A DNA stretch of 59,133 bases from Smithellaceae bacterium (GTDB lineage Bacteria; Desulfobacterota; Syntrophia; Syntrophales; Smithellaceae): contig JAUYFM010000007.1 in the NCBI GenBank assembly GCA_030690945.1, forward strand, positions 1 through 59,133. The letters run 5' to 3'. The position numbers and the translations under genes are program-made. Below, piece after piece: positions 1 through 20,408 of this stretch (position 1 is the first letter of the stretch; the number at the start of each line of letters is the position of its first letter). The notes under the pieces are model-generated. The model saw only the letters and a program-made list of their open reading frames with translations. It was not told the origin of the DNA and made no database searches.

Positions 1-1
1 G

Positions 2-349
2 GGCGCTTTGGGCGAGGCGATTCAAGTGGCGATGCTGACACGCGGCATGAGCGAGGACACGGCATTGAAAATCCTGAGCCGGGCGATGGGTTCGACGATC
101 CTTTCCGCATCAACCTCCGTGCAGGAAGCGCTGGAGGGCTACAATGGACACGGGCTCTTCACCTATGTGCTGACCGAAGGATTGAAAGGCAAGGCGGATA
201 AAGGGAAGACCGGTTACATCAAGACCACGGATCTTGCCGATTATGTGGATAATGAAGTGCCCATCCTGGCGGAGAAGGTGTTCAAACGCGCCCAATATCC
301 GACCATCTCCATCAGCGGCCAGGCGTTTCCCATTGGTAAAGTGCAATGA
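2..349 (+). CDS. Caspase-like (peptidase C14) protein, C-terminal fragment
   Basis: The reading frame is already open at the window edge and ends at a TGA at 347-349, so only the last 115 residues of a longer protein are visible. They align throughout with the C-terminus of the caspase-like protein encoded at 920-4384: both share a VGS/MGS-x-SAS segment, an ALEGY-GHGLFTYVL block and a closing FPIGKV/FPIGRV tail. By comparison with that paralog, the catalytic Cys lies only a few residues before the edge, so neither catalytic residue can be seen. ALEGYNGHGLFTY is typical of the C14 fold in bacterial WD40-caspase proteins. It is the first of three tandem C14 genes. The TTG at position 8 is not the real start. 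Confidence 0.85.
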   Translation, partial: GALGEAIQVAMLTRGMSEDTALKILSRAMGSTILSASTSVQEALEGYNGHGLFTYVLTEGLKGKADKGKTGYIKTTDLADYVDNEVPILAEKVFKRAQYPTISISGQAFPIGKVQ

Positions 350-379
350 GGTGTTTTGTCGATAAAAAGGAAGGTTAAG

Positions 380-832
380 ATGAAAACCATAAAACGTTTT
401 GCAGGATTATTGTTGCTGCTTGCCTTGGGAATGTGTCTTTACTCCTGCATCGGACCGGTTCCGGTCGATGTGGTGATGATCGACAATGAATTGTATTTTG
501 TGCTGGAAGAAGAGCGGAATATTGCCGCGATCCAGGTGGCGGTTTTCAACGCTGGCAAGAAGATACAGGATGGGGAAACCATGTGGGCGCTGAATCACGA
601 TCTGGGCACTGAAGTGAAAAAAAGAAAATATCCAAATCTGAAACAGATAAAATACGGGCAGATATTGGATGAGTTTCCGCGCGTCATCGGACCGGCTCCA
701 TTAAAAAGAAATGTGGAATATTGGGTCGGCATGAACATGGGGGATAGATTTGCCGGAGAGGTCTTTATCATTAAGGACGATAATAAAGTTGTGATGCCCC
801 GTCGAAAAATTAAAGAGGGAAGTGTCAAATAA
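380..832 (+). CDS. Putative lipoprotein of unknown function
   Basis: This encodes a 150-residue exported protein. I chose the ATG at 380 over an upstream TTG at 356 because AAGGAAGG sits just before it and the product then begins with a clean signal peptide (KR, a Leu-rich core, then LYSC at about residues 18-21). LYSC is an imperfect lipobox, so lipidation on that Cys is likely but not certain. The mature part has no recognised domain; it is mixed alpha/beta in character with a basic C-terminus. It lies between two caspase-like genes on the same strand, 30 bases after the first, so co-transcription is plausible. Function is unknown. Confidence 0.7.
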   Translation: MKTIKRFAGLLLLLALGMCLYSCIGPVPVDVVMIDNELYFVLEEERNIAAIQVAVFNAGKKIQDGETMWALNHDLGTEVKKRKYPNLKQIKYGQILDEFPRVIGPAPLKRNVEYWVGMNMGDRFAGEVFIIKDDNKVVMPRRKIKEGSVK

Positions 833-919
833 CGGTCCGGGAAAGACGACAGGAAAACTAAAGAAAGGCCTTGGTAGCTTAACGGGGAAAGTATTTGATA
901 AGCTTTAAGAGGAGAAAAT

Positions 920-3900
920 ATGCTCAGATTTAAGTACCTGTGGCGCTCACTGTTCGCCTCGTTGGGAATGATCGTCATCCTGTCAGTAAGCCTTGTCTTT
1001 GCCGCTGAAAAGCTTGTTCCAGCCGCAAGTCAGCAGGGGCCGGAGATATTCCTTCAGCTTGGCCATAGTGCCTGGGTTCAAACCTTAGACATGTCCAAGG
1101 ACGGTAAATATTTATTGTCAGGCGCCTGGGGTGGTGCCGTCAAACTGTGGGATGTGCAGACCGGCCGAGAGATCCGTACCTTATCAGGACACAAATCCGC
1201 CCCCTCTCTGGCCTTCGCTCCCGATGGGCTTCACGCCGTTTCCTTTGAGGAGGGAGCGGACGGGGGAATCATCAGGTTGTGGGATCTGCCAAGCGGTCAT
1301 GAGATATACACCTTTACCAAGAAGGGACTCAGTCTTCTCATGCCACCCATAACTTTCGTGTCCAGAGGAAAGTACTTCATGATTGCCGATACACTCCGCC
1401 TGAAAGTGCATTTATGGGAAACCTCCACCGGACGCGAAATGGGAGGACTTGATCTGAAAGATGTCCGCACAGAAATGATCGCATCCCCTGATGGCCGCTT
1501 CGTCCTGACTCAGGAGCCGGGAGAGATGAGGCTTATGGGATATGTCTCGAAGCCGACGATGCTCTGGAACCTGCTGACCGGAAGGGTCATAAACGAATTC
1601 AAAAAGGATATTTCAAAGTTTAACTCCGCCTTTACGCCGGACGGCAGTCATGTCTTATCCTATAACGACAATAGTTTGGAATTGTGGGATGTTGCCACAA
1701 AAAGAGTGCTCTGGTTCGTGAAAGGGGGACATACCGGTTCCGTTGATTTCATCTCGATTGCCGATAACGGAGCCGTCGCTCTGACGGCAGGCAATGATGG
1801 AACGGTCAGGGTCTGGGATATAGCTACCGGACGAGTAGTTAAAGTTATTGCATCGCCCAGGGGATTCAAGCCAAACAAACTTTCGCCGGATGGCCGGAAA
1901 CTTCTTTTCGGGGATGGAGATGGAGGACATATTACCCTTAGCAAAACGGTTAAGCTATTCGACACAGTGACGGGCCAGGAAATAAAAACGCTGAAAAAAG
2001 ACGGGGCAATTCCTTTTAAAAACATGTCTTTTGCCCCTGACGGCCAAAGACTGTTGTTGATGCGTCTTGATGGAGGGGTTACCCTTTGGGATATAGCCAC
2101 TGATCGGGAGGTGCAACGCTTCGAAGGCAGAGGACAAACCATTACCAGTGTAAATTTTGCGCCGCGCAGGAACATTGCCGCCATCGTCGGGCGTAAAGAT
2201 GTAGCCCTCTGGGATATTGCGACCGGCGAGCGTGTTATGGTCCTGAAGGGTCACGGGCAGGATGTTTCATCCACAGCTTTCTCGCCCACAACGGACACCC
2301 TCGTTACGGGGAGCCTCGATACGACGCTGCGCTTCTGGGATCTCAAATCGGGCAAGGAGAAATTATCCGTACCCGGACATAACGGAGGGGTCCTCTCGGT
2401 GGCCTATTCGCCCGACGGGCGGTACCTGGCGTCGGCGGGAAATGATGCCCAAGTCAAGCTTCGGAACGGTTCAACCGGTGCGCTGCTGAAAACATTTACC
2501 GGGCACATTCAGGGGAAGGGGAGTGCTATCTACGGAGCCTTCAACGGGGTTTATGACGTCAGGTTCAGCCCGGACGGGAAAACGATTGCTTCTGCAGGGA
2601 CAGACGGCACCGCAAGATTGTGGGACATCGCAACCGGCAAAGAAATCAAGAGTCTGCGCGGGCACGACGGGAATGTGATTTCGGTTGCTTTTTCACCCGA
2701 TGGACGTTTTCTGGCATCGGGTGGCTACGATGGTACAGTCCGGCTATGGGATGCGAAGTCGGGAAAAGAACTGAAGGCGCTGAACAAGGATAATCATGAT
2801 GGGTCAGTCACATTTGTCGGTTATTCGCCTGACGGCAAATATGTCTTCGCTCGAGGGAAAGATGAGATCGTAAGGCTCTGGAGTGCAGAAAACGGGCAGG
2901 AGATCAAACAGTTTGCCGGCATGAGGACTCTCACGACAATGGTAGGTACTATGAATTCCGCCTCTGTTTCTCCCGACTCCCGTTACCTGCTCACCAATGA
3001 CGGCCCCGGGGCAGTGAGCCGTGTCTGGGATATTGCGGCAGGCAGGGAGATTACCCATCTCATCAGCTTCACCGACGGCGAATGGATTGCCATTACCCCG
3101 GAAGGCTATTTCAATGCTTCGCGAAACGGAGCAAAGCATCTCAATGTACGGGTTGGCAACCAAGTCTATGGCATCGATCAGTTTTATGCAAAGTTTTACC
3201 GGCCGGAGCTTGTCGCCCTGGCCCTGACCGGCAAGGCAATGCCCAAAGGCGAGTTGATTACGGATATTGCCGCTCAAAAACCCGCGCCCAAGGTTCAGAT
3301 TCTGTCACCGGTCGCCAACAGCTCCGTGGATCAGGATAGCGTTGCCGTTACGCTCAAGATTACGGACAGTGGCGGCGGAATCGGCAGCGTGAATATTTAT
3401 CTCAACGGCGCTCAGGTGGCCAATGATACGCGGGGCGTCATCGTCTTGGGCAAGGCAGCGGCCAACGAAAAGATACTGTCGTTTACTATTCCGCTCATCA
3501 AAGGGCAAAACGAAATTCGGGCCGTCGCTTTTAATGGTGAGAATTCCATGGAGTCGAATCCCGCCCGGATCAGCGTTATGTCCAGGGCCGTGTTGCGGAA
3601 ACCCGATCTCTATGCCCTGGTGATCGGCATCAATACTTACAAGAACCAATCCATTTCGTTGACCTACGCGGTTCCCGATGCCATCGCTTTTGCGGGGACG
3701 CTGCAGAAAGTTGTAACCCCTTTATTTGAAAAGGCGGATATCCGAACGCTGACGACGCCTGCTGCCACAACGAAAGAAGCCATCACCAAAGCCTTTGAGG
3801 AAATCCGGCAGTTGGTTAAGCCCAATGATCTTTTTATATTTTACAATGCTTCCCACGGCATGGTTGACGTGGTGAACGGCGAAGAGCAATATTTTTTACT

Positions 3901-4384
3901 GACGAGTAATGTCCGGCTCCTTTCCTCCCAGCATATCGGCAAAGATGCCCTGAGTCACAAAGACCTGGTGAGCCTGATCGGAAGCATCCCGGCGCAGAAG
4001 AAGCTGGTGATTCTCGACACCTGCAATGCCGGCAAAGGGGGCAAGGAAATCCAGATAGCCCTTCTGCAACAGACGAGAGGCCTCACCGACGCCACGGCGG
4101 TCAAGCTCCTGCAGCGGGCGGTCGGTTCCTCCGTCTTTTCCGCTTCTTCTGACACGCAACAGGCCCTGGAAGGGTATAAAGGACATGGCTTATTCACCTA
4201 TGTTCTCCTGGAAGGATTACAGGGGGAGGCGGACTTCAAGAAAGACGGATTCATTACCGTGAAGGGTCTTGCCCTGCATACAGAGGAGCGAGTGATGACG
4301 CTCTCCGAGGAAGTCTTCAAGCGTCAACAGAATCCGATGATCGAGACGGGTGCAAATGATTTTCCCATCGGGCGGGTGAAATGA
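920..4384 (+). CDS. Secreted WD40-repeat caspase-like protease (C14)
   Basis: A 1154-residue protein starts with a signal peptide (about residues 1-29, cleavage after VFA). About 15 WD-type beta-propeller blades follow to roughly residue 690, recognisable by repeated LWD-type strand ends such as VKLWDV, VRVWDIA and VRLWDAK; that is enough for two propellers. An Ig-like linker leads into a C-terminal peptidase C14 domain at about 900-1154. The dyad is visible: His979 in NASHG and Cys1035 in DTCNAG. In known bacterial proteins of this architecture the propeller is thought to bind partners and the caspase fold to cleave after basic residues; the target here is unknown. GAGGAG precedes the start. 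The stop overlaps the next reading frame, and a C14 paralog ends upstream. Confidence 0.92.
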   Translation: MLRFKYLWRSLFASLGMIVILSVSLVFAAEKLVPAASQQGPEIFLQLGHSAWVQTLDMSKDGKYLLSGAWGGAVKLWDVQTGREIRTLSGHKSAPSLAFAPDGLHAVSFEEGADGGIIRLWDLPSGHEIYTFTKKGLSLLMPPITFVSRGKYFMIADTLRLKVHLWETSTGREMGGLDLKDVRTEMIASPDGRFVLTQEPGEMRLMGYVSKPTMLWNLLTGRVINEFKKDISKFNSAFTPDGSHVLSYNDNSLELWDVATKRVLWFVKGGHTGSVDFISIADNGAVALTAGNDGTVRVWDIATGRVVKVIASPRGFKPNKLSPDGRKLLFGDGDGGHITLSKTVKLFDTVTGQEIKTLKKDGAIPFKNMSFAPDGQRLLLMRLDGGVTLWDIATDREVQRFEGRGQTITSVNFAPRRNIAAIVGRKDVALWDIATGERVMVLKGHGQDVSSTAFSPTTDTLVTGSLDTTLRFWDLKSGKEKLSVPGHNGGVLSVAYSPDGRYLASAGNDAQVKLRNGSTGALLKTFTGHIQGKGSAIYGAFNGVYDVRFSPDGKTIASAGTDGTARLWDIATGKEIKSLRGHDGNVISVAFSPDGRFLASGGYDGTVRLWDAKSGKELKALNKDNHDGSVTFVGYSPDGKYVFARGKDEIVRLWSAENGQEIKQFAGMRTLTTMVGTMNSASVSPDSRYLLTNDGPGAVSRVWDIAAGREITHLISFTDGEWIAITPEGYFNASRNGAKHLNVRVGNQVYGIDQFYAKFYRPELVALALTGKAMPKGELITDIAAQKPAPKVQILSPVANSSVDQDSVAVTLKITDSGGGIGSVNIYLNGAQVANDTRGVIVLGKAAANEKILSFTIPLIKGQNEIRAVAFNGENSMESNPARISVMSRAVLRKPDLYALVIGINTYKNQSISLTYAVPDAIAFAGTLQKVVTPLFEKADIRTLTTPAATTKEAITKAFEEIRQLVKPNDLFIFYNASHGMVDVVNGEEQYFLLTSNVRLLSSQHIGKDALSHKDLVSLIGSIPAQKKLVILDTCNAGKGGKEIQIALLQQTRGLTDATAVKLLQRAVGSSVFSASSDTQQALEGYKGHGLFTYVLLEGLQGEADFKKDGFITVKGLALHTEERVMTLSEEVFKRQQNPMIETGANDFPIGRVK

Positions 4385-4413
4385 CTTTTTTCAGTTCAGG
4401 TAAGGACATAAAA

Positions 4414-7400
4414 ATGGACAGCAAACGGTTGGGTATGATTCATAGTATCATTCTTCTTCTGCTTCTGGCATCAGCATCTGTTTGGGCGGCCGAGCGGGCG
4501 TCATTTGGCGTGATGATCGGGGCTGTTACGGCTGAATATGCGCAATTCATCGGTCTCACCACGCCGGAGGGCGCCTACGTCGTTTCGACATCAGCTGCAG
4601 GCGACCTGCGGCCCGGTGATGTCATTCTGAAGGTTGATGACAGGAATATCAGTGTGCCTGCTGATCTGCGAGAGGTCACAAAGCAATATCAGCCGGGTGA
4701 TCAGGTGCAGTTGCAGATTGCGCGGAGTAAGGAGCGCATCCAGATCAGCTACACCCTGAAGAGGGCTGCCGTTTCACAAGGTACGGTTCGTCCTGGTCAG
4801 CCAACCCGGGCTACGGTCGGATTAGGCTTTATCCCTACCATAGAAAGTGCGCGCTTTGAACAGGAGGTGTTGAAGTCTGACCAGCCGGTGCTGGCCTATT
4901 TCTATGCAAACTGGTGTGCACCCTGCAAAATGTACCTGCCGGTCCTGCAACAGACCATGGATCGGTATCCCGAGATTAAAATTGTCGGCATTGATGTCGA
5001 TAAAAGCGGTGATATCGTCGCTCATTATGGCATTTCCAGAGTTCTGCCAACCGTAATCCTGTTCAATGGTGGCAGGGAAGTTGACAAGTTTTCGGGTGGG
5101 GTGTCGCGTAAGCAGGTAGATGAACTGGTGGCAAAAACACGTAACGACAGCAACGAGATTGAAGTATTTCCTTCCGTCGGCAGGGGGGACTACATTGTGC
5201 AGGTTGCTTTTATCAAGAATAGTCCGTTGATTGCTGCCAGAGATGACGGTCAGAGGGTTTTTGTCTGGAATTATCAGCAGGGCGCTCTGGTGAGAACTTA
5301 TCGTGCAGCGGCAACAGGCTTGTCGCCCGATGGGGCCTATGCAGCCTTGACCGATAAGAAACGGACCGCCGTGCAGATTGTGGATATCGTGCAACAGCAG
5401 CAGAAAACCATCCAGACACAACAGTTTGTTGAAAAATTGGCGATATCACCGCTGGGCACTGTGGTTGCCAACTTCGGCGCAGACCAGAGCGGTCAATTCA
5501 GTGTCGACATCTGGAACCCGGCGAACAAGCTTATCAAATCCATTCCGGTGGACCATACAACCAATCCAAAGTCGGTGATGTTTGTCTTTTCGCCTGATGG
5601 CGCTCACTTTGCGCTTTCCACCTTGAACAAACTTGAACTGTTCTCCACAGAAAACTGGGTGTGCGAAACGGTTGTCCCGATGAAAGGTACAGCGGCGGTA
5701 TTGCAGTTTACGTCCGACAGCAAGGCCGTCTCGATCCCGGGGAAAGATGAAGGATTGATCGACCTGCAAGGAAAGACACAGCGGGGGTTTAACGGACGCG
5801 TGGTTATTGGCAGACCTGATGATCGTCTGTTTGTTGTGGGTGATGGCGATAACTCATTTCGTCTGGTGAGTGACCGGTCCTTCGGAAAGGGACTTCGTTT
5901 TGTCGGTCATCGGGCAGGAGTCACTGCGGCGGCGGTCGGCGATGCGGTTCCGTGGCTGGCCAGCGGCAGTCCAGATGGAACCGTCAGGTTGTGGGATCCG
6001 GCAACCGGCAGGGCGGTTGGGCAGTTTGTTGGCTTTGCCAATGGCGAATGGATTGTGATCACGCCGGAAGGATACTATAACTCCTCGGCCCGGGGTCATG
6101 AATACCTCAGCATCCGCCGCGGCAACAAGGTCTACGGTATTGACCAGTTTTATGATGTCTTTTACCGGCCTGACATTGTTTCGGCAAAGCTCAAAGGCGA
6201 GGATATTACGGGTCTGGTCACTCTGACGGTGGAAGAAGCGATCAAGAATCCTCCTCCGGCAGTCAAGTTTTCTACCGTTCCCAACCAGACCAGCGACCCA
6301 AAAGTGAAGGTCTGTTATCAGGTGCAAAGCACCGGTGGCGGTATTGGGGAAGTACGCTTGTTCCAGAATGGCAAATTAATCAAGTCCGACGGATTCTATC
6401 GCGATGTTGCGGCGCAGAGTACAGCGGCAACCATGAAGCTGGCTCAAGTAAACAGCAGGGCTGTTTATCAGGATATGCGCTCCCTGACCATCAGGGAGAA
6501 ACAGAGTCCCGGCGCTGTCGTTAACCGGGCAAAGGGTGAGTTAGTTGACGAATGCGTGGAGATGGAAACGATTGCCGGTGAGAACGAGATTAGTCTGACC
6601 GCCTTCAACGCCCCTAACACTGTGCAGAGCGTGATGGGCACAGCCCGTTTCATCTCTACCAGAGCGCCCGATGAACCACGGCTGTATATTCTGGCGGTCG
6701 GCATTGACCGGTATCGCGACGCTTCCATCAATTTGAAATACGCCGCCAAGGATGCCCGGGACTTCATCGCACAACTGTCAGACAAGGCTAAAACCATCTA
6801 TCATCCATCCAACATCCATTTGACCACCCTGGTCAATGAGCAGGCCGGTAAACCCAACATTCTGGCAGCCATCGATAAACTGGCCGCACAGGTGAAACAT
6901 GGCGACAGCTTCATTTTCTTCAACGCCTCCCACGGGTTGCTTTTGCAAAGCCAGTACTACATCGTCACCGGCAGTTTCGCAGGCTCTCTGGACAGAAGCG
7001 CAAGTCTGATCAGCTCCAATGAGATTGTTGAGATGTCCAAAAAGATCAAAGCCTTGTCGCAACTTTTTATTTTTGATACGTGCCATGCCGGTGGTGTTGA
7101 CACCATTGTCAGTGGCCTGTATGATGCTCGCATGTCCGTACTGGCTAAAAAGATGGGGCTGCACATCTATGCCTCGGCAGGCTCCGTCGAGACCGCTCTG
7201 GACGGCTATCAGGGCAACGGTTTATATACCCATTCTCTTTTGGAGGGATTGAAAAACGGCGAGGCGGTGGACAAAAACAAGAGCGGCATGGTAACGGTTA
7301 AAAGTCTGGGAATATACTCCAGGGAGATGACCGCAGAAATTTCCAATAAACTCGGCCATCCGCAAATACCAGTGATCATTAATTTTGGGAAGGACAGTTC

Positions 7401-7419
7401 GTTGTTCATTGTGCGCTAG
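4414..7419 (+). CDS. PDZ-thioredoxin-WD40-caspase fusion protein, exported
   Basis: From the ATG at 4414 (AGGTAAGGA eight bases upstream) the product has 1001 residues and a clear signal peptide. An in-frame ATG at 4381 overlaps the previous stop but would add an odd N-terminus. Domain order: PDZ (about 28-110, with the LRPGDVILKVDD core); thioredoxin (about 135-240) with Cys168-Ala-Pro-Cys171 in WCAPCK; a degenerate WD40 propeller (about 255-545, one clear VRLWDPATG blade); an Ig-like linker; and a C14 domain with His840 (NASHG) and Cys890 (DTCHAG). The thioredoxin active site is complete, so disulfide chemistry coupled to a periplasmic caspase-like protease is plausible. I do not recall this four-domain order as standard. 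It is the third C14 gene in a row. Confidence 0.9.
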   Translation: MDSKRLGMIHSIILLLLLASASVWAAERASFGVMIGAVTAEYAQFIGLTTPEGAYVVSTSAAGDLRPGDVILKVDDRNISVPADLREVTKQYQPGDQVQLQIARSKERIQISYTLKRAAVSQGTVRPGQPTRATVGLGFIPTIESARFEQEVLKSDQPVLAYFYANWCAPCKMYLPVLQQTMDRYPEIKIVGIDVDKSGDIVAHYGISRVLPTVILFNGGREVDKFSGGVSRKQVDELVAKTRNDSNEIEVFPSVGRGDYIVQVAFIKNSPLIAARDDGQRVFVWNYQQGALVRTYRAAATGLSPDGAYAALTDKKRTAVQIVDIVQQQQKTIQTQQFVEKLAISPLGTVVANFGADQSGQFSVDIWNPANKLIKSIPVDHTTNPKSVMFVFSPDGAHFALSTLNKLELFSTENWVCETVVPMKGTAAVLQFTSDSKAVSIPGKDEGLIDLQGKTQRGFNGRVVIGRPDDRLFVVGDGDNSFRLVSDRSFGKGLRFVGHRAGVTAAAVGDAVPWLASGSPDGTVRLWDPATGRAVGQFVGFANGEWIVITPEGYYNSSARGHEYLSIRRGNKVYGIDQFYDVFYRPDIVSAKLKGEDITGLVTLTVEEAIKNPPPAVKFSTVPNQTSDPKVKVCYQVQSTGGGIGEVRLFQNGKLIKSDGFYRDVAAQSTAATMKLAQVNSRAVYQDMRSLTIREKQSPGAVVNRAKGELVDECVEMETIAGENEISLTAFNAPNTVQSVMGTARFISTRAPDEPRLYILAVGIDRYRDASINLKYAAKDARDFIAQLSDKAKTIYHPSNIHLTTLVNEQAGKPNILAAIDKLAAQVKHGDSFIFFNASHGLLLQSQYYIVTGSFAGSLDRSASLISSNEIVEMSKKIKALSQLFIFDTCHAGGVDTIVSGLYDARMSVLAKKMGLHIYASAGSVETALDGYQGNGLYTHSLLEGLKNGEAVDKNKSGMVTVKSLGIYSREMTAEISNKLGHPQIPVIINFGKDSSLFIVR

Positions 7420-7528
7420 GCGTATTGTTTTCAAGAAGTTATTGTGGTACTTGCGAAAAATAAAAAATAATTTTGGAACTTTTGTCGTTGCAGATTTGTC
7501 AAAACAGAAAACAGGAGGGTTACATATT

Positions 7529-7750
7529 ATGGGTATTGGAATATACGAATTAATAGTTCTTTTTGTTATCATTAGCATTCTGGCGCTTCCGTTCTGGATT
7601 ATTTCATTGATTGATATCCTGAAAAGCAAGTTTGAAGGGAACGACAAGATCGTCTGGCTCCTTGTGCTCATCTTTTTAGGTATTCCGGGCATGATACTTT
7701 ATCGGGTTATCGGAAAGAAACAGAAGATCATCATTCAGGAGAAGAGGTAA
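7529..7750 (+). CDS. Small two-TM protein, PLDc_N-like
   Basis: This encodes 73 residues, starting at an ATG with GGAGG nine bases upstream. Two hydrophobic helices are joined by a short polar loop (DILKSKFEGNDK), followed by a WLLVLIFLGIPGMILY helix and a Lys-rich tail. This matches the stand-alone phospholipase D N-terminal (PLDc_N) membrane domain family, whose members are small inner-membrane proteins of unsettled role. It ends two bases before the next gene and probably shares its mRNA. Confidence 0.75.
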   Translation: MGIGIYELIVLFVIISILALPFWIISLIDILKSKFEGNDKIVWLLVLIFLGIPGMILYRVIGKKQKIIIQEKR

Positions 7751-7752
7751 AC

Positions 7753-8418: not shown

Positions 8419-8517
8419 CCGGTGGAACGTTTGCTGATTATGATGATAGCAAGTCTTGGTAATTATGGACAGCGGCTTACGTAAAACTTTAACAGAAACA
8501 AGCTTTTGGAGGATAAA

Positions 8518-9332: not shown

Positions 9333-9440
9333 ATACAGGAAAGATAGTTGAGATGGACAAAGTGGGAACGTTTTAGCCTTTAGCTTTGTCTAATATTAAA
9401 AAGGAGACAACCAACTACAAGCAGAAAGGTAATTAGGTCC

Positions 9441-11004: not shown

Positions 11005-11051
11005 AACAGCACAGGTTGGGATCGTTTTTTGCACGCTCAACCTGTGCTGTT
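11005..11051 (+). terminator. Intercistronic hairpin after peptide gene
   Basis: A perfect 14-bp stem (AACAGCACAGGTTG at 11005-11018 pairing with 11038-11051) encloses a 19-base loop that contains six T. It lies between the short peptide gene and the second Kunitz gene and runs straight into the latter's AAGGAG ribosome site. There is no T-run after the stem, so it may act as a partial terminator, an mRNA stabiliser or a translation control rather than a classical terminator. Confidence 0.6.
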
Positions 11052-11064
11052 GTAAGGAGTTGTT

Positions 11065-12556: not shown

Positions 12557-12572
12557 AGTATAGGAGGAAGCG

Positions 12573-13157
12573 ATGATAAAGGCCGCATTGATTGAAAATG
12601 AAGAATATTTGCGAAGAGTGAGAGTACAAATAAATGTCAAAAATATTATTATTTTCTGTATTTTCTCCATCCTGCTTCTGGTCGTATCAGCTAATGTTGG
12701 CATGGCTGAAGAAAGATACATGGGCAAACTTATTGTTGATAAGGGTGGAAAATATGAAATTGATAATAAAGATTATGTAGAACTGGTTCTTGATAAAGAT
12801 ATCGTAATATCAATCAGGTTGCATACAAAAGCGGCCCATAAAGATGTAAAATTTTCTGATTGCCGGAAGTTAGAAGACGACGGTAGCAACTTTACGAAAT
12901 GGTATTCTATTGAATGTCGTAATATAAAGTCATACGATGGCAAATCTGCTGCATGGCTTGAGTATTATTTTGCGGGTGCTTATGTCGGAATATCGCCGGA
13001 AATAACACCGCAATATTCCATGTACAAAACGCTAAAAGAGATATCAGGTGGACTTGGCCTGGATGTCCCATCAAGGACATTTATAATTTATGCCGACAAC
13101 GAGCCTATATTTGAATTTTTTTGTTATCCCGAAAATATTAAAAATGTCCAAGAATGA
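12573..13157 (+). CDS. Membrane-anchored or exported protein of unknown function
   Basis: A 194-residue protein from an ATG preceded by AGGAGG. One hydrophobic segment at about residues 23-42 (NIIIFCIFSILLLVVSAN) could be a late signal peptide or an anchor, leaving a beta-rich outer part with Cys in SDCRK, IECRN and FFCYP. No domain is recognised. It is the last gene of the Kunitz/radical SAM run on this strand, 16 bases after the enzyme. Codon use is more AT-rich than in the caspase genes. About 210 bases without a recognisable feature follow. Confidence 0.65.
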   Translation: MIKAALIENEEYLRRVRVQINVKNIIIFCIFSILLLVVSANVGMAEERYMGKLIVDKGGKYEIDNKDYVELVLDKDIVISIRLHTKAAHKDVKFSDCRKLEDDGSNFTKWYSIECRNIKSYDGKSAAWLEYYFAGAYVGISPEITPQYSMYKTLKEISGGLGLDVPSRTFIIYADNEPIFEFFCYPENIKNVQE

Positions 13158-13368
13158 ATTAGAATTTCAAACATGAATGAGGCGATAGACATTTTTTATT
13201 TAGAATCTGCTATTTTCGACACTGGGAAAACTGCACATATGGAAAGGAAATTATTAAGTATAAAATTCATGTATTGAAATATTTTTGATACTTCGGGAAC
13301 AAAATTGATCATGAAGTTGTCTAAAGTGTAAAGCAGTATAATCAATATCAAACTGGAAGGAGTAAGAG

Positions 13369-13917
13369 ATGAAGAGACAAAATTTTGTAAAGACAATAAT
13401 GGTAATATTAATGGCAATCGCTTTCATCGTCCCATCGCTGGCAGGAGCGGCCGAGCAGAGCAAAAAGAAGACTGTACCGGCTTTAGAAACATCAAAGACG
13501 ACGATGGGTTCGGAGGTCGTCAATCAGGAAGTGATTCAGATCCTGAGAAAAGGGGAAATGGCCAAAGTTATACTGAACATTGTCGGCCAACCTGGCGTTT
13601 ACTTCAAAGTGCAGTATAGCGCGACGGGAGCGGAAGACAGCTACGCTCTGGTGCCGAAAGGTAAAGGCGTGATCGGGGCAAACGGTCTCGGAATGGTGAG
13701 TTTTGATCTCAGGAAGCTTAGCAAGGAGGAGGTCTACCTGAAAGTGACGACATCGGACACGGCAGATTTTGCAAAGCCTCGTGTGGTGCCGAAGCCCATA
13801 GTGCTTGCAGTAGAACAGGTCAAGATTAAGGATCGTGGCGCGATGAACGATCTCATAAGGATTGAGCGTGAAGGGGGATGTACTGGTGGGCAATGTTTTG
13901 CTCCGCCGCCCCGTTAG
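13369..13917 (+). CDS. Small secreted protein, copy 1 of a duplicated pair
   Basis: A 182-residue protein with a signal peptide ending AGA-AEQ. The mature domain is very similar across its length to the product of 17399-17917: shared blocks include LETSKTTMGSEV, QEVIQILRKGEMA, QPGVYFKVQYS, VSFDLRKL and KEEVYLKVTTSD. Strand spacing suggests an Ig-like beta-sandwich, but no family is recognised. The ribosome site and the bases before the start are also similar in the two copies. Unlike copy 2, this one has a divergent tail with two Cys (GGCTGGQCF). The copies bracket the CHAT protease, which suggests a functional unit or a duplication around it. Confidence 0.75.
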   Translation: MKRQNFVKTIMVILMAIAFIVPSLAGAAEQSKKKTVPALETSKTTMGSEVVNQEVIQILRKGEMAKVILNIVGQPGVYFKVQYSATGAEDSYALVPKGKGVIGANGLGMVSFDLRKLSKEEVYLKVTTSDTADFAKPRVVPKPIVLAVEQVKIKDRGAMNDLIRIEREGGCTGGQCFAPPPR

Positions 13918-14016
13918 AATTTAAAATAGCTGTAGCTATGCAGTTTCGGAAGTGGAGGATGATGATGCCAAAAGCAAAGCATCATCTTCCTCCACGATTA
14001 TTCGTTCGGAGAGGCT

Positions 14017-17000
14017 ATGATTTTTTTGAAGACCCTGAAGGACAATTCTGTTGGCGACAAGAAGACACGCATTCCTGCGCCTGATGAAATTGCCGGAAAA
14101 CCATTCATCTTAAAAAGCCTTAACAAATGTTGGCTTTTGATGTTGCTGCTCGTTTGCGTTCTTTTTGCCGGTCAGGCATGGGCAAACGAACCGGCAGCCC
14201 TGATATTGCAGGACTTCAGGTCGAGTTTTGAAGGCGCCTTTGCAAAAAAAGATTTTCCTGCCATGAAGAAATTGGCCGGGGCGCACCCGGAAAAACTGCG
14301 CATCTTAATTGACAATATTTTATCCGAGTATTCCAGGGCCGCGGCCCAATCCCGCACAGTGGATGCAGAAAAGGCGTGTGACCTGGCAGCGGCGGCCGCC
14401 GGCCTCTCGCAGGAACTGTTCGATGATCCTTTCCCTGCAAATCAGGTCAATCTATATAAATCATGGAGCCGCAGTGACCATAACAGGAAGGTCACTGCCG
14501 ATGTATTTTTGAAAGAAACCCAAGCGGCCTTTGATGAGGGACGTTACGGCGATGTGCTCGCGCCGGGGAACTCCGCTCTGGAGATTTACACTGCCCTCAA
14601 GGACGAGGCAGGGCAGGGGAAGGTGCTTCATGACATGGGACAGGCCGAGCGGAGACTCGCTAACTATCCGGATGCCCTGTCGCTGCACCATCAGGCACTG
14701 GTTCTGGCGACGCAGGCGTCGGACCGTTTGCATCATGGACGGGCGCTTATTGACATAGGCGATGTCCATGAGAGAAAAAAAGAACCGGAAAAAGCAATCA
14801 AATTCTACACGGAAGCGATTCAGGTACTGAAATCCCCGGCGGATTGGCAGGAGGCGGCCCGCGCACTCCGGCAGCTGGGAGATGTGTATGTAGCGACAGG
14901 GAGTTTCGAGAGCGCTTACAGGGCATACAATCAGGCGCTTCAACATGCCGAAAAGGCCAAGGACATGCGGCATGTCGCCGAATTTAATGATTACATTGGC
15001 TTTTGTCACCGAAGGCTGGGCGACTACAGGATGGCTATGGGGTATCACCAGGTCGCCCTTAAAAGTGCGGAAATGATTGTATCGGCTGATGACCGGTTGC
15101 GGGCCCGCGCAAGGTCGCTAAATCATCTGGGTCTCTGCATCTCAAAACTGGCCGAGGAAGACGCGGTAAATGGCAAGACGGGGCAGGCAGCGGAAGGATA
15201 TCGTGTGGCCATTGCTTACGAAGAAAAGGCTCTGGAACTTGCTGTTAAAGTACAGGATCGGTGGCGTCAGGGCTATGTGCTGCGGGCGCTGTCTCTTATG
15301 CATCGCGAACGGGGTGTCCTTTTCAAGGGACAGGAGGCGATTCAGGCGTTTCAGCTTTCGCTTGGCCGGGCGGACGAAGCCCTCAAACTTGGCATCGGCA
15401 TGAAAGAAAAGGAATGGCAGGGTCTTGCCCTGCATGACAAAGCTCTGGTGCTTGTTTTGCTGGACCGGGAGCAGGAAGGTCTTAAAACCTTTCAACAGGC
15501 GCTCGACTTGTGGGAGCAGATGGGAGATCTTCAGTCGGCCGGATATGCGCACCAGTTTGTGGCCCGGCAGTTCCACGAAGCGAGAGGCAGACTGGCTGAG
15601 GCGGAAGCTTCTTATGAACGCGCGATACTTGCTTTTGGAAAAATCGGAGATGTCGAGTCGCAAGGCTTCACCATACTGGACAAGGCGCGGGTACAGGCAC
15701 TGCAGGGACAGAAGGAAAATGCGGCAAACCTCTATGCTCTGGGTATCTCAAAACTGGAGACCGTGCGGACAAAGGCGGGGTTCCCCGAGTTCAGGAAGGC
15801 CTTCATGGGGAAAATCTACGACCGCTATGAAGAGGCCGCGCTATTTGCGCTTGGACATGGTTTCAACGACCGGGCGTTGCTGTATGTCGAAAGTATGAAG
15901 GCCAGGGCCTTCCTCGACCAATTGGCGGAGGGGCGCGTCGAAGTGGAGAAGGGTATCGACTCTGATCTCAAGGTCAAGCGGGACCAACTGGAGAGTGCCA
16001 TCTCTGCCGAGACCGACAAGATCGCAGAAGAGTTAAGAAAACCTGCTCTGGATGATAAAGCGCTTGCCGCGGTGCGTGCCAAAGCAGAAAATCTGTCAGT
16101 GGAACGAAACCGGGTGATCAAACAGATCCGATTACAGAACCCCCATTATGCCTCGGTGAGGTATCCGGTTCCTGTAACGGTGGCCGAGCTTCAGGGCAGG
16201 GTGCTCGCTAGAGGTGAAGTCCTCCTGGAATATTTCATTACGTCGCAGGGTATTTATTGCTTTATTGTCACCACCAACAGCTTCGAAGTTGTGAAGCTGT
16301 CCATCGGTGAGTCAGACCTCCGAAAAAGGGTAGGGGAACTTCTCGAAAATATACAATCGGGACCTGCCAGGGGTGAGGGATATGATCGGGTTTCGGCGGG
16401 CCAGCTTTACGACATCCTGATGAAACCCTTCGAGAAGGCCATAGCGGGCAAGGCACTGATTATTGTGCCGGACGGTTTTCTTGCAAGACTTCCCTTCGAA
16501 GCCCTGGTTATCGTGAAAGAAGGAAAGCGCTCTTATCTGCTCGAAAAGTATGTTGTAAAATATATACAGTCTGCTTCCGTCCTCGCCCTGCTGAGGGCTC
16601 ATGGCAACGCTGGGCAGGCGAGCGAGCGGTTCATCGGCTTCGGCGACCCGGTCTACGACTACGAAAGCTTCAAACGGGGGAAACAGGAGGGTGCAGTCGG
16701 TCTCTCCGGACGAGGCAGTGACGAGATGGTGAAAACACGTTATGCCGGACTGGCTTACGGGCTGAGTCGTCTGGAAGCGAGCGGTGACGAGATCAGGGCA
16801 ATCAAACGACTTTTTCAGAAGAAAAAGATAATGGGAAAGACTCTTCTTCGGGAAGAAGCCAAAGAGGACTATGCCAAAGGAGTCGGGATGGATCAGTACG
16901 GTTACATACACTTCTCGATGCATGGCATCGTCACACCAAAACTGCAGGCGATTATCTTCAGTCAGATACCAGGTAATGGTGAAGACGGCCTGCTCACGGT

Positions 17001-17322
17001 GAGCGAGATCATGAACCTTCGCTACAATGCCCGACTCGTGGTTCTTTCCGCCTGTCAGACCGGCCTCGGGAGAATGGAGCGCGGTGAAGGTGTCACCGGG
17101 CTTACCCGGGCTGTGATGTATGCAGGGAGCTCCGCAACGGCAGTCAGCCTGTGGAACGTTGATGATGCCGCAACCCGGGAGTTGATGACGTGGTTTTACA
17201 AAGGTGTGATCCAGGAACAGGCGGGCAAGGCAGATTCCCTCCGCCAGGCGAAGCAGTCCTTGCTCAAGACGCGCTATCGTCATCCTTATTTCTGGGCTGC
17301 TTTTGTCATGTACGGAGAGTGA
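14017..17322 (+). CDS. Exported TPR-CHAT caspase-like protease
   Basis: A 1101-residue protein. GGAGAGG precedes the ATG. A hydrophobic segment at about residues 38-57 ending AWA-NEP is a signal peptide with a long n-region. Tetratricopeptide repeats cover roughly 160-620, and a CHAT (separase/caspase-fold) domain occupies about 760-1101. The catalytic pair is visible: His969 in HFSMHG and Cys1013 in LSACQTG; GEGVTGLTRA and SLWNV are also typical. CHAT proteases with TPRs act in regulated proteolysis, the best-known case being the TPR-CHAT protease of type III-E CRISPR, but no CRISPR array lies nearby. Export points to a periplasmic role. Duplicated small secreted proteins flank it. Confidence 0.92.
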   Translation: MIFLKTLKDNSVGDKKTRIPAPDEIAGKPFILKSLNKCWLLMLLLVCVLFAGQAWANEPAALILQDFRSSFEGAFAKKDFPAMKKLAGAHPEKLRILIDNILSEYSRAAAQSRTVDAEKACDLAAAAAGLSQELFDDPFPANQVNLYKSWSRSDHNRKVTADVFLKETQAAFDEGRYGDVLAPGNSALEIYTALKDEAGQGKVLHDMGQAERRLANYPDALSLHHQALVLATQASDRLHHGRALIDIGDVHERKKEPEKAIKFYTEAIQVLKSPADWQEAARALRQLGDVYVATGSFESAYRAYNQALQHAEKAKDMRHVAEFNDYIGFCHRRLGDYRMAMGYHQVALKSAEMIVSADDRLRARARSLNHLGLCISKLAEEDAVNGKTGQAAEGYRVAIAYEEKALELAVKVQDRWRQGYVLRALSLMHRERGVLFKGQEAIQAFQLSLGRADEALKLGIGMKEKEWQGLALHDKALVLVLLDREQEGLKTFQQALDLWEQMGDLQSAGYAHQFVARQFHEARGRLAEAEASYERAILAFGKIGDVESQGFTILDKARVQALQGQKENAANLYALGISKLETVRTKAGFPEFRKAFMGKIYDRYEEAALFALGHGFNDRALLYVESMKARAFLDQLAEGRVEVEKGIDSDLKVKRDQLESAISAETDKIAEELRKPALDDKALAAVRAKAENLSVERNRVIKQIRLQNPHYASVRYPVPVTVAELQGRVLARGEVLLEYFITSQGIYCFIVTTNSFEVVKLSIGESDLRKRVGELLENIQSGPARGEGYDRVSAGQLYDILMKPFEKAIAGKALIIVPDGFLARLPFEALVIVKEGKRSYLLEKYVVKYIQSASVLALLRAHGNAGQASERFIGFGDPVYDYESFKRGKQEGAVGLSGRGSDEMVKTRYAGLAYGLSRLEASGDEIRAIKRLFQKKKIMGKTLLREEAKEDYAKGVGMDQYGYIHFSMHGIVTPKLQAIIFSQIPGNGEDGLLTVSEIMNLRYNARLVVLSACQTGLGRMERGEGVTGLTRAVMYAGSSATAVSLWNVDDAATRELMTWFYKGVIQEQAGKADSLRQAKQSLLKTRYRHPYFWAAFVMYGE

Positions 17323-17398
17323 GCCCGAAAACGGGGGTCGCACTATCGGTATCTCCAAGTAAAAGCAGGGAAGAATATCAATCTGAAGGGAGTAAAAG

Positions 17399-17917
17399 AT
17401 GAAAAAACACAATTTTGTAAGTACACTGATAATAGGATTAATGGCCATCGTCTTCATTATCCCCTCGCTGGCAAACGCGGGCGAACAAAGCAAGAAGAAG
17501 TCCGAGCCGGTGCTGGAGACATCGAAGACTACAATGGGTTCAGAGGTTATCAATCAGGAAGTGATCCAGATATTAAGGAAAGGTGAGATGGCCAGAGTTA
17601 CGCTCAACATTGCAGGTCAGCCCGGCGTTTACTTCAAGGTTCAATATAGTCAGACAGGAGTGGAAGACAGCTACGCCCTGTTACCGAAGGGTAAAGGCGT
17701 GATAGGCGACAATGGTTTTGGGTCAGTGAGTTTTGATCTGAGGAAACTGGGGAAGGAGGAGGTCTACCTGAAGGTGACGACATCAGACATGGCAGATTTC
17801 TCAAAGCCGCGCGTGATGCCGAAGCCACTGGTGCTTGCAGTGGATCAGGTCAAGATCAAGGATCGGGGGTTCCTGGAAAAGATCAAACGGACTGAGATCG
17901 AAGAGTGGCGACCATAA
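17399..17917 (+). CDS. Small secreted protein, copy 2 of a duplicated pair
   Basis: A 172-residue paralog of the product of 13369-13917, with a signal peptide ending ANA-GEQ. Identity is high along the beta-rich core and the C-terminus differs (LEKIKRTEIEEWRP, no Cys). AAGGGAG lies before the start. It is 76 bases after the CHAT gene and probably in the same transcript. Retention of two intact copies with mainly conservative substitutions implies both are functional. It could be a substrate, activator or inhibitor of the protease between the copies; there is no direct evidence for any of these. Confidence 0.75.
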   Translation: MKKHNFVSTLIIGLMAIVFIIPSLANAGEQSKKKSEPVLETSKTTMGSEVINQEVIQILRKGEMARVTLNIAGQPGVYFKVQYSQTGVEDSYALLPKGKGVIGDNGFGSVSFDLRKLGKEEVYLKVTTSDMADFSKPRVMPKPLVLAVDQVKIKDRGFLEKIKRTEIEEWRP

Positions 17918-17981
17918 GGTGAACAGGCGGTGTATGGTGGTACAGGATCCGCATACCTATTCAATGGAGAGGGTTAATGTC

Positions 17982-18353
17982 ATGAGTCCAAAAGCATATG
18001 TGCGACCAGGGAAGATGGCATCCGTCATCGGGATAATCGCCGCGGGTGTTATGCTTATTTTCGGCATTGTATTTTTCGGTCTTCTTCAGCAGGAGGAGGG
18101 CAGCGGCATCGGACAGATATTTATGGTATTCTGGATGCTGATTGTCATCCTCATGATTGCCTATTACGTGTACAATCTGATGTCAGGAAAGGCTTCCTCC
18201 TCTGCGATGGCGGAGATTGACCTGGAGACGCCGGAGAGCGGCCCTACTGTGGAAGAAAAACTGCACAGCCTGGAGAGGCTGAAAAAGGATCGATTGATTA
18301 CAGAAGAAGAGTATCTGCAAAAGCGGAAAGAAATCATGCAGCAGAAATGGTAA
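17982..18353 (+). CDS. Two-TM protein with SHOCT domain
   Basis: This encodes 123 residues from an ATG with GGAGAGGG about nine bases upstream. Two transmembrane segments (about 13-35 and 47-66) are followed by a C-terminal SHOCT motif: EEKLHSLERLKKDRLITEEEYLQKRKEI, read as two blocks around LITEEEY. SHOCT domains are short oligomerisation elements found on many bacterial membrane proteins. An open frame begins upstream at 17835 but overlaps the preceding gene and lacks a ribosome site. Confidence 0.78.
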   Translation: MSPKAYVRPGKMASVIGIIAAGVMLIFGIVFFGLLQQEEGSGIGQIFMVFWMLIVILMIAYYVYNLMSGKASSSAMAEIDLETPESGPTVEEKLHSLERLKKDRLITEEEYLQKRKEIMQQKW

Positions 18354-18421
18354 GAATTCAGGAAATGGGGAAATGAGAAAATTAACAAGAGATACGGAAG
18401 AACGGAAGAACGAGAGAAAAC

Positions 18422-19012
18422 ATGATCATCTATATTCCTTTCGCGATAATGCTGGCTTTTGTTTTTGCCTACTATTTCGCTTTTGAATACTGCCGCTACA
18501 AAAATGCCAGGATGATGGCGGAGGGACTTGGCGGGAGAGCGGTGTTCAAGTTAGGCGGGTCATATATGAGGCGCAATCATGACGGCGTGGAGGAGAGAGC
18601 CTGGATCGAGCCGGATGATAAGATGGCCTGGGGCAGCCTTCGATCGGCATTGAGCCCTCCTTTGGGCAAGCTTTTTTTGCAGAGGAATAAGGGCCCCGGC
18701 TTCCGCTTTGATATCGAGCCCAAGACCGGAATACTCTTTCGGACCTTATCCCTGGACACACTCAAAGAAGCCGATTTCAATGTGCCCCAACTGGATAGTA
18801 GCCTGCGGCTGCGGACCAATAAACATGACGATGCGGGTCGCTACTTCTTCGCGCCTGAAAAACAGCAATCATTAACTGCTCTTTTCCTTGCGGGGTTCTC
18901 CCGGCTTAAAGGCGACCATGGCGGTATCCTTGCGACAATGCAAGGCATCACCACCGAAGATCTCAGTCCGGAAAGAATCGGGCTTTTCTTTAAGCATCTG
19001 CGCAGCTTTTAG
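18422..19012 (+). CDS. Membrane-anchored protein of unknown function
   Basis: This encodes 196 residues with GAACGAGAG before the ATG. An N-terminal anchor (IIYIPFAIMLAFVFAYYFAF) leads to a soluble domain of about 170 residues rich in charged and aromatic residues (WIEPDDKMAWG, FRFDIEPKTG). No family is recognised. It sits between the SHOCT protein and the serpin on the same strand. Because the N-terminus lacks a cleavage site it is more likely an anchored inner-membrane protein than a secreted one. Confidence 0.68.
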   Translation: MIIYIPFAIMLAFVFAYYFAFEYCRYKNARMMAEGLGGRAVFKLGGSYMRRNHDGVEERAWIEPDDKMAWGSLRSALSPPLGKLFLQRNKGPGFRFDIEPKTGILFRTLSLDTLKEADFNVPQLDSSLRLRTNKHDDAGRYFFAPEKQQSLTALFLAGFSRLKGDHGGILATMQGITTEDLSPERIGLFFKHLRSF

Positions 19013-19199
19013 GGATGATTGAGTATAGAAGGGGAGCACCTGCAAAAGTATATAGAAATCATGCACAGAGGCAGCGAGTTAAAAAACAATTTCCTTCCGG
19101 GAACAAACGTGCAATTGCAGTTGTCTCACACTTGAAATCAGGATGATTTCGATTGCCGGGGAAAATAAAATATGAACGGCAGACTTACAAGGAGAGCAT

Positions 19200-20408
19200 A
19201 TGAATCGATTATTACAAGTATTGTCGGGAATCTTCACGATCGCCTTATTTTCGGTAATTTCGGCCACATCCGTGGAGGCTTCCATCTTCGGGACGTCAGC
19301 GCAGGAAAACCTTGTACAAGGGAACACGGCTTTTGCCGTACAATTGTATCAGGAACTTGGCGCCAGGGAAGGGAATCTCTTCTTTTCGCCCTATAGCGTT
19401 TCATCGGCCCTGGGCATGACCTACGCCGGCGCCCGTGGGAATACGGAAAAAGAAATGAAGGATGTTCTGCATTTTCCATTGGATCAAGCGCAACTGCATC
19501 CCGCATTCAGAAAACTGAACAGAGAACTGGCCGCCACTGCCCAAAAAAGCGGACAGAAACTAAACATTGCTAACGCATTGGTCCTCACCGGCGGCGATGT
19601 GAGCGGTGGGTTCAAGACTCTCCTGAAAGACAACTATGACGCTGAGGTCTTCGGTGGAGGGCTGGATGTGATCAACGGCTGGGTCAAGCGAAAAACAGAA
19701 GGAAAGATCGAGAAAATACTCGAAGAGCTGGATGTCAATTCCGTCTGCGTTTTGCTCAACGCCATTTATTTCAAGGGAACATGGGCCAGTCCATTTCAGA
19801 AAAGTCGCACGCAGGACGGGCCATTCAACGTGTCGGCAGGCAAAAAGATAATCGTTCCCTTCATGCGCCAGAAAAGTGAATTCAAAATCATGACCAAGGA
19901 TGATTTCCAGGCCATTTTGATCCCGTACGAAGGGCAGAATCTGTCCATGGTCATCTTGCTTCCCCAGGCTGTAGATGGTTTGGCTAAACTGGAAAAGCAA
20001 TTATCCATCCAAAACCTGAATGAATGGTTGGCGAAACTGGACGAGAGTCAAGCCCAGGAGATTAATCTCTATCTGCCGAAATTCAAACTCGAAACCGGTT
20101 ATGATCTGGTGCCGCCCTGCATGAAAATGGGCATGAAGGATGCGTTTGCCCTGGCCAATGCTGATTTCAGCGGTATGGGATGGCGCAAAGGTTTTCTTTA
20201 CATTTCGCAAATTAAGCATAAGGCTGTTGTCGAAGTTAACGAGGAAGGAACGGAAGCGGCAGCCGCCACGGCCGTGGAGATGGCCACGAAATCAGTCCCT
20301 TTTAATCCGGAGTTTCGCGCGGATCATCCGTTCTTCTTTATCATCCGCGACAGTCGAAGCGGCGCCGTTTTGTTTATGGGCAGGATGGTTAATCCCGGCA
20401 TGAAGTAA
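19200..20408 (+). CDS. Serpin with inhibitory hinge and Lys at P1
   Basis: A 402-residue protein with a signal peptide ending VEA-SIF, then a full-length serpin fold ([44 protein letters not shown]). The reactive loop hinge [10 protein letters not shown] (residues 348-357) matches the consensus of inhibitory serpins. Counting from P17 = Glu348 places P1 at Lys364 and P1' at Ser365. The predicted specificity is therefore trypsin-like or metacaspase-like, the same as the two Kunitz proteins. Serpins trap serine proteases and sometimes caspase-fold proteases as covalent complexes. Export places it in the same compartment as the caspase-like proteins. AAGGAGAG precedes the start. Confidence 0.95.

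Follow-up and report, generated by a model that had tools for sequence, protein, structure and literature searches.

What are the partners of the protease inhibitors at this locus: the proteases encoded around them, or the enzymes that might modify them? The window, meaning the whole analyzed stretch of 59,133 nucleotides (C8:1-59133, on a contig of 124,640 bases in a 3.15 Mb assembly of a Smithellaceae bacterium, class Syntrophia), encodes caspase-like (C14) and CHAT protease homologues, two Kunitz proteins (KunA and KunB) and a serpin, for which the initial annotation offered, as one reading, a proteolytic switch with matched inhibitors. Much of that gene list held. All 25 genes delineated across 2-26233 lie on the forward strand, in the single orientation described, with intergenic gaps of −11 to 211 nt; Pfam matches bear out the TPR-CHAT protein, both Kunitz proteins and the serpin; the proposed signal peptides correspond to N-terminal hydrophobic segments compatible with export in a hydropathy check; and the predicted P1 residue is Lys in KunA, KunB and the serpin, in a register counted by eye. 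The three C14 genes are two complete exported caspases plus, at the contig end, a third represented only by a 115-aa C-terminal piece.

Absent from that list were four radical S-adenosylmethionine (radical-SAM) genes (at 9441, 11459, 20427 and 23310), genes for a PqqD protein (22020), an S26-like protein (22368) and an ABC exporter (24428), and two small Cys-rich open reading frames (ORFs; 10799-10993 and 21736-21921). These omissions alter the meaning of the cluster, and the radical-SAM maturases are more informative partners for the inhibitors than the caspases are. The locus is probably a mosaic of exported-protein modules around a conserved cassette for a ribosomally synthesized and post-translationally modified peptide (RiPP), in which the maturase rSAM2 modifies the KunB tail and the caspases and CHAT protease are independent of the inhibitors.

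A conserved Kunitz tail beside a radical-SAM maturase

The KunB and rSAM2 genes overlap by 11 nt, and a KunB'-rSAM2' pair with the identical overlap occurs in Geomobilimonas luticola (locus L110; Geobacterales, class Desulfuromonadia). There, homologues of p18422 (61% identity) and of the serpin (68%), with one gene between them, lie inside the next 4.8 kb, the whole set falling within 6.3 kb. The serpin P1 is Lys in both genomes, as judged by eye. Upstream of KunB', a secreted Cys-rich protein (L110:9367-9753) ends in a knottin-like spacing (C-C-CC-C-C).

The two KunB tails (KYGGVGLRDFDNAK in the window, KYGGVGIRDFENAE in G. luticola; consensus KYGGVG[LI]RDF[DE]NA) are identical at 11 of 14 positions, while identity is 14/28 in the leader, 7/19 in the export segment, 5/19 in the linker, 18/47 in the Kunitz domain and 1/7 in the linker that follows it. 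Counting the stop, the tail has 15 codons. Ten of them differ between the two genomes, 7 by synonymous changes and 3 by nonsynonymous ones (two of these conservative), and 5 match exactly. Because the changes are mostly synonymous, selection appears to act on the amino acids; the rSAM2 start codon overlaps the tail, but this does not account for the conservation. From two sequences, the conservation looks like selection on a modification site. A conserved leader and site beside a conserved maturase is the pattern in both known pairs (n = 2 only), and we infer that rSAM2 modifies the tail, which would make KunB a RiPP-tailed protease inhibitor.

Peptides encoded upstream of more distant rSAM2 relatives often carry a related Tyr-Gly (YG) motif. 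Ten relatives were inspected, all best matches: 8 of 115 plasmid records (E ≤ 1e-12, top of the list) and the loci L110 and L211. Upstream peptides in Agathobacter (an unannotated ORF), Azospirillum (two species), Aureibacter and Nostoc contain MYGTGVRM, PYGPAM, LYGGAM and PYGVAI, PYGAGIREA, and LYGLPP, and a 37% identical relative in genome G383 is preceded by an unannotated 65-aa ORF ending AYGDGGGGGVGIA; beside the relatives of Treponema, Tropicibacter and Phocaeicola no YG peptide was seen. In total, YG occurs upstream of 7/10 relatives, Geomobilimonas included, versus 44/521 background ORFs of 40-120 aa. The stricter pattern YG.{0,2}G[VILM][RK] occurs in 3/10 (Geomobilimonas, Agathobacter and Aureibacter) versus 2/1119 background ORFs of 40-250 aa. 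A search of IMG/VR confirmed no rSAM2 relative and gave no KunB tail pattern. The Tropicibacter oceani relative (L217) adjoins a gene for a trypsin-like peptidase.

Table 1. Features of the window between positions 2 and 26233, with the evidence for each.
Feature	Position	Strand	Evidence
C-terminal piece of WD40-caspase, truncated at contig end	2..349	+	83% DNA identity of window 1-934 to a WD40-caspase gene end and following DNA in congener G015
Exported WD40-C14 caspase homologue	920..4384	+	Pfam WD40; PF00656 genome search; motifs NASHG, DTCNAG
Exported PDZ-thioredoxin-WD40-C14 caspase homologue	4381..7419	+	Pfam C14 50.6 bits, thioredoxin 76.2 bits; orthologues in G008, G015
First block missing from G008 (G015 retains only 7573-7781, 209 bases)	7439..17959	+	blastn of window against L083, L085
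KunA, exported Kunitz protein, P1 Lys	8961..9332	+	Pfam Kunitz 50.2 bits
rSAM1, radical-SAM, most like SPASM peptide maturases	9441..10802	+	Pfam, NCBIfam
Candidate 64-aa exported Cys-rich peptide, overlapping rSAM1 stop	10799..10993	+	ORF listing
KunB, candidate rSAM2 substrate: degenerate Kunitz domain with conserved leader, export segment and C-terminal tail KYGGVGLRDFDNAK	11065..11469	+	Pfam 22.5 bits (cut-off 21); alignment with Geomobilimonas KunB'
rSAM2, radical-SAM/SPASM maturase, 11-nt overlap with KunB	11459..12556	+	Pfam, NCBIfam; orthologue with same overlap in L110
Exported protein, paralogue of 17399-17917	13369..13917	+	76% identity
Exported TPR-CHAT protease homologue	14017..17322	+	Pfam CHAT 208.6 bits and TPR; CHAT in L206 60% identical
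Exported CHAT partner protein	17399..17917	+	CHAT and partner-family pair conserved in G112
SHOCT-like membrane protein, conserved core gene	17982..18353	+	G008, G015; beside Kunitz in L013, L015, L016, L018
Second block missing from both congeners: p18422 and serpin	18360..20414	+	blastn
p18422, N-terminal hydrophobic segment, upstream of serpin	18422..19012	+	61% identical homologue in L110, separated from the serpin there by one gene
Exported inhibitory-type serpin, P1 Lys	19200..20408	+	Pfam 375 bits; L110 serpin 68% identical
rSAM3, conserved RiPP cassette	20427..21671	+	Pfam, NCBIfam, congener orthology
61-aa RiPP precursor, leader ..W.KPELIALVRSKPEETVL..CK, Cys-rich core	21736..21921	+	Substitution pattern
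PqqD-type RiPP recognition protein	22020..22322	+	Pfam 56.2 bits, cut-off 23.4
S26/S24 signal-peptidase-like protein	22368..23288	+	Family scores under cut-offs
rSAM4, conserved RiPP cassette	23310..24422	+	NCBIfam, congener orthology
MsbA-like ABC exporter	24428..26233	+	NCBIfam, congener orthology

A conserved core and two added blocks

An orthologous locus is present in two congeners, G008 and G015, with the WD40-caspase, the thioredoxin-PDZ-WD40 caspase (Trx-caspase), SHOCT, rSAM3, precursor, PqqD, S26, rSAM4 and ABC genes. DNA identity by blastn is 87-94% from the Trx-caspase onward and 81-83% at the WD40-caspase end. (The name SHOCT rests on similarity seen by eye; Pfam reported no SHOCT match.) The 61-aa precursor, which has no NCBIfam match, is identical in protein sequence (100%) to its G015 ortholog while ten bases differ, with 9 codons changed, 9 synonymously and 0 nonsynonymously; the comparison with G008 gives four synonymous codon changes and two nonsynonymous ones. 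The other two frames contain stops, and nearly all changes in them are nonsynonymous. By this substitution pattern, the ORF is coding. G015 has a homologue of it on a second contig (L104), and G042 has one on the opposite strand (L091); both lie beside related genes and keep the leader pattern W.kPEl..v.R.KPEE.VL..CK with differing Cys-rich cores.

A coding precursor, together with shared leaders and variable cores, therefore identifies rSAM3, precursor, PqqD, S26, rSAM4 and ABC as a RiPP cassette, with a predicted product: the precursor has a leader and a variable core, and the operon joins a tailoring enzyme, a RiPP recognition element (RRE/PqqD) and an exporter, all kept in G008 and G015. 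More distant relatives of S26 were detected in 17 further genomes (149 in all), in several cases, among the matches listed, beside rSAM, PqqD and ABC genes; C14 lay on the same contig in 0/17 of these genomes (contigs often short). Action of rSAM3 on the serpin was considered and rejected, because in G008 and G015 rSAM3 follows SHOCT with no serpin beside it and has its own precursor. Directly past the exporter, at 26400-26894, is a REP-associated tyrosine transposase (98.5 bits), also in G015 and unseen at that place in G008.

Two blocks of the window are missing from the congeners (Table 1). The first holds KunA, rSAM1, KunB, rSAM2, CHAT and others; the second holds p18422 and the serpin. 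The G008 and G015 genomes contain no Kunitz match and no relative of the serpin anywhere, each has two CHAT matches elsewhere, and the serpin is present in 1/20 genomes of the genus. The two congeners share a SHOCT-rSAM3 spacer that the window has exchanged for other sequence, which favors insertion in the window's lineage rather than loss. Between p18422 and the serpin, the SHOCT 3' end is duplicated in degenerate form (19017-19065, 80%), perhaps as an insertion scar.

Such a history could also be read as a neutral hot spot, where unrelated exported-protein modules gather beside the RiPP cassette with no joint function, the KunB tail serving rSAM2 and its neighbors being accidental. We find this doubtful. 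It accords with a GC content of 0.35-0.48 for the genes of 7.5-13.2 kb (most core genes, 0.48-0.57; p356, 0.44), with module homologues in different lineages (L110 and L206) and with their separate boundaries, but KunB-rSAM2 and p18422/serpin stand together again in another class, within the same 6.3 kb. Moreover, a serpin is found in 2/80 Kunitz loci from GTDB, versus about 0.05 expected (0.046, on the rough density assumption that every phylum has the serpin rate of Desulfobacterota, about 0.1 per genome). These loci are the best 80 of 102 Kunitz-like stretches (Bacteroidota, Gammaproteobacteria, Marinimicrobia and others; 1284 kb in total, many cut by contig ends), searched with local hidden Markov models (HMMs) on all ORFs of at least 60 aa; L106, L109, L111 and L122 share contigs with our Desulfobacterota set. 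The two with a serpin belong to G. luticola (separate genes) and to a metagenome-assembled genome (MAG) of a Nitrosopumilaceae archaeon, where a single protein (L138:9788-11317) carries a Kunitz domain ahead of a complete serpin. Kunitz matches occur in 10/197 relatives and 9/395 phylum genomes and serpins in 37/395 (own genome counted), and the two lists from the 395 genomes overlap only in the window's genome.

KunA, the serpin and the Cys-rich peptide

Both Kunitz domains score above the Pfam cut-off and have six Cys. KunA resembles DUF2330-Kunitz proteins (L012, L013 and L015) at its N- and C-termini and is apparently, from this similarity, an internally shortened relative with the middle removed; a plasmid search with KunA gave no match at E ≤ 0.01. 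The serpin domain is full-length (profile positions 2-370 of 370) with a small-residue hinge, P15-P9 GTEAAAA, from which inhibition is predicted. A C-terminal domain (..EEW..LW..AF.KPAP..DF..Y.VACVFLGH..), which we take to resemble PrcB_C, is common to the Kunitz protein at L015 9242-10906 and to ankyrin proteins (L077:10227-12509, L078:10096-12438 and L084:2-2218).

KunA lacks a tail and the Cys-rich ORF overlaps rSAM1, so action of rSAM1 on KunA is uncertain, and rSAM1 may act on the 64-aa Cys-rich peptide instead. NCBIfam gives no match for that peptide, and all 25 matches listed for rSAM1 are under their cut-offs; rSAM1 matched 21 phage records, with 24-26% identity among the five matches listed. 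A radical-SAM gene lies ≤3 kb from Kunitz in 4/6 loci in the window's order (P ~0.002 at 14 rSAM per Mb; a post hoc estimate that omits L019 and L020, counts G106 and G112 once, and scores the 5.6-kb G147 contig as a miss). An rSAM1-like gene of G084 has next to it two exported peptides with closely spaced Cys residues (L012:14836-15661); a DUF2330-Kunitz gene is 4-5 kb away from them.

Could the Cys-rich peptide of 10799-10993 be the sole substrate of both rSAM1 and rSAM2, leaving KunB a passenger whose tail is kept for, e.g., sorting or translational coupling? The peptide sits between rSAM1 and KunB, a small exported Cys-rich protein also precedes KunB' in L110, and the rSAM2 start codon falls within the tail codons. 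But the mostly synonymous tail changes point to selection on amino acids, the KunB leader is likewise conserved, and the L110 protein is, by eye, not evidently homologous to the window peptide, making this explanation unlikely.

The caspases and CHAT protease probably stand apart from the inhibitors

The His/Cys catalytic motifs are found in both complete caspases and in CHAT, giving each a domain with a His-Cys dyad. The 115-aa piece alone gives no Pfam match, and the listed Pfam matches of gene 920-4384 (25 of 57 families) are all WD40 or beta-propeller models; the whole-genome PF00656 search placed C14 in this gene at 3611-4348 (58.7 bits). CHAT is flanked on both sides by its partner protein, as paralogues 76% identical, and the pair recurs in G112 (60% and 61% identity), with radical-SAM-like ORFs downstream. 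At the DNA level these paralogous genes form direct repeats (78%; 13344-13643 and 17374-17673) that bracket CHAT, and only one of the copies has the terminal Cys-containing tail GGCTGGQCFAPPPR. For the partner protein as an inhibitor, the AlphaFold model, from two sequences, is weak (mean predicted local distance difference test score 58.9), with no PDB match at E ≤ 0.001.

The inhibitor blocks are missing from the congener caspase loci (2/2), and the caspases are therefore independent of these inhibitors; inhibitors cognate to the caspases would have been kept with them in relatives. Nor did a conserved C14/CHAT-Kunitz-serpin neighborhood, put forward as a check by the initial annotation, emerge above chance. 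C14 or CHAT was detected by the local HMMs in 0/80 GTDB Kunitz loci, including the 20-kb stretches of G. luticola and the Nitrosopumilaceae MAG; serpins (2/80), rSAM (4/80, no enrichment) and SHOCT (4/80) were present. The C14 HMM was built from few seeds, and distant caspases may escape it; the Desulfobacterota counts are backed by Pfam searches. Among 14 Desulfobacterota Kunitz loci (L019, a 3-kb contig, is uninformative; L020 matches weakly and has an internal stop; some share contigs with the GTDB set), rSAM occurs in 4, SHOCT in 4 and C14 plus CHAT in 1. This last, in the distant phylum genome G351 (C36; L080:4347-10638), brings together, in 6.3 kb, a C14-FGE-sulfatase fusion, a TPR-CHAT gene and, opposite these, a Kunitz gene, and is the best evidence for the caspase-inhibitor idea. 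It is also the one genome of 15 other Kunitz-bearing Desulfobacterota genomes with C14 ≤10 kb from Kunitz, versus 0.12 expected (P ~0.12, from 20 matches in 48.3 Mb; several contigs short).

Restraint of the caspases and CHAT by matched Kunitz and serpin inhibitors, for which shared strand, tight spacing, export, Lys P1 and the G351 cluster speak, is thus very improbable and was rejected on the two congeners and 80 Kunitz loci, the more so as Kunitz inhibitors target mainly serine proteases. The other possibility first raised, that the inhibitors guard against trypsin-like proteases while the caspases act separately, fits better, to judge from Lys at P1 and from Kunitz plus serpin without C14/CHAT in G. 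luticola and the Nitrosopumilaceae MAG. A reading as a defense system was dropped: no specific PADLOC anti-phage model matched among the 8 proteins scanned, which gave merely generic caspase, TPR, HEAT-ARM and viperin-like rSAM matches.

A model for tail modification

We propose that the locus combines the core defined by orthology in the two congeners (WD40-caspase(s) and Trx-caspase through ABC) with an added module, KunB-rSAM2 plus p18422 and the serpin, that recurs in one genome of another class. In the cytoplasm, rSAM2 would bind the conserved N-terminal leader of KunB and alter its C-terminal tail. As Phe-to-Asn i,i+2 crosslinks, or three-residue cyclophanes, are known from other rSAM/SPASM maturases (PMC11002830), one candidate product is a three-residue cyclophane at F-x-N, with the crosslink expected in KYGGVGLRDFDNA. 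Once exported, modified KunB would block extracellular Lys-specific trypsin-like proteases through its Kunitz domain, with the serpin as a second line. KunA, KunB and the serpin would be dispensable for the exported caspases and CHAT.

Several observations weigh against this model. Only two KunB-rSAM2 pairs are known, and among 395 evenly sampled phylum genomes, the window's own set aside, there was one 37% rSAM2 relative at E ≤ 1e-60 and none closer. The KunB Kunitz domain is two residues short around Cys38, for which reason KunB may fail to inhibit proteases; with the domain shortened there and the tail kept in the window, the tail may matter more than inhibition. KunA lacks a KunB-type tail. 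The nearest NCBIfam families of rSAM2, the GDL-peptide and nif11 maturases, are far under cut-off. The ten inspected relatives were picked from best matches, the YG motif is short, is N-terminal in DUF1843 peptides, and is missing in some sister peptides of the same sets and in 3/10 relatives, and the L211 and L214 peptides are unannotated ORFs. Pairwise distances do not separate insertion from loss, with the window's genome (G000) nearer G008 in the cassette and G008 nearer G015 in the Trx-caspase.

More tentatively, and leaning slightly against it, we suggest that KunB founds a class of radical-SAM-tailed inhibitors: exported, folded Kunitz proteins with a crosslinked YGGVGxRDFxNA tail from their own maturase, forming a two-inhibitor shield with a serpin. 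If tail modification is right, RiPP-type radical chemistry acts on folded protease inhibitors, joining two fields unlinked in the open-access literature, bacterial Kunitz proteins gain testable biology, and there is a natural route to graft a crosslinked tail onto a stable scaffold; the attractive but unsupported pairing of caspases with matched inhibitors is corrected in any case. In titles and abstract starts of open-access papers, we found no Kunitz-radical SAM link, and within the same scope the literature on bacterial Kunitz proteins, serpin-Kunitz-Geobacter and bacterial caspase-like proteins or serpins did not describe the combination. One study (PMC11511053) reportedly concerns Kunitz domains of an Acinetobacter protein.

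Comparison with known systems

Kunitz/BPTI inhibitors are MEROPS family I2, and KunA shares their six Cys, GPCKA loop and P1 Lys, the listed PDB relatives being animal Kunitz inhibitors by name. Unlike these, the proteins here are bacterial and fused to or adjoining DUF2330, ankyrin or rSAM partners, with KunB shortened near Cys38. Conserpin is the top PDB sequence match of the window serpin, which shares the hinge and full-length domain of prokaryotic serpins, including chloropin; these inhibit serine proteases (PMC10090351). Unlike other prokaryotic serpins, the window type is accompanied by p18422 in both loci seen (window and L110). Prokaryotic metacaspases with WD40 have been described and share with the window caspases C14 plus WD40, a likely signal peptide, several genes per operon and occurrence in Deltaproteobacteria among other groups (PMC3501461). 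In contrast to them, one window caspase has an N-terminal PDZ-thioredoxin part, and the caspases are linked to a RiPP cassette in 3/3 genus genomes found with the orthologous cassette.

The cassette itself resembles rSAM/SPASM, PqqD and ABC RiPP clusters (nearest NCBIfam SynChlorMet ScmD/ScmE, GeoRSP and PqqD/PqqE) in uniting rSAM3, precursor, PqqD, S26, rSAM4 and ABC in one operon and, like known rSAM RiPP clusters, in a conserved leader with a Cys-rich core that varies between homologues. It differs from the named clusters in that its listed NCBIfam matches are all below curated cut-offs and its precursor is unmatched. For rSAM2, the closest families are the GDL-peptide/DUF1843 (TIGR03913) and nif11-class (TIGR04103) maturases, which have small partner peptides just upstream, several with YG; rSAM2 falls outside both (183 of 592 and 169 of 725 bits), and is paired with a Kunitz protein that carries the motif in a C-terminal tail.

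With triceptide, or three-residue cyclophane, rSAM enzymes the KunB tail shares F-D-N or F-E-N, a known crosslink pair (PMC11002830). Unlike in those systems, the product here is predicted only, and no such family reaches cut-off for rSAM2 among the matches listed. Whole proteins are matured by rSAM/SPASM enzymes in the QhpD/QhpC system and by anaerobic sulfatase maturases, which likewise act on a whole exported protein; in contrast to both, rSAM2 would act on a protease inhibitor, at a tail that lies beyond the folded domain.

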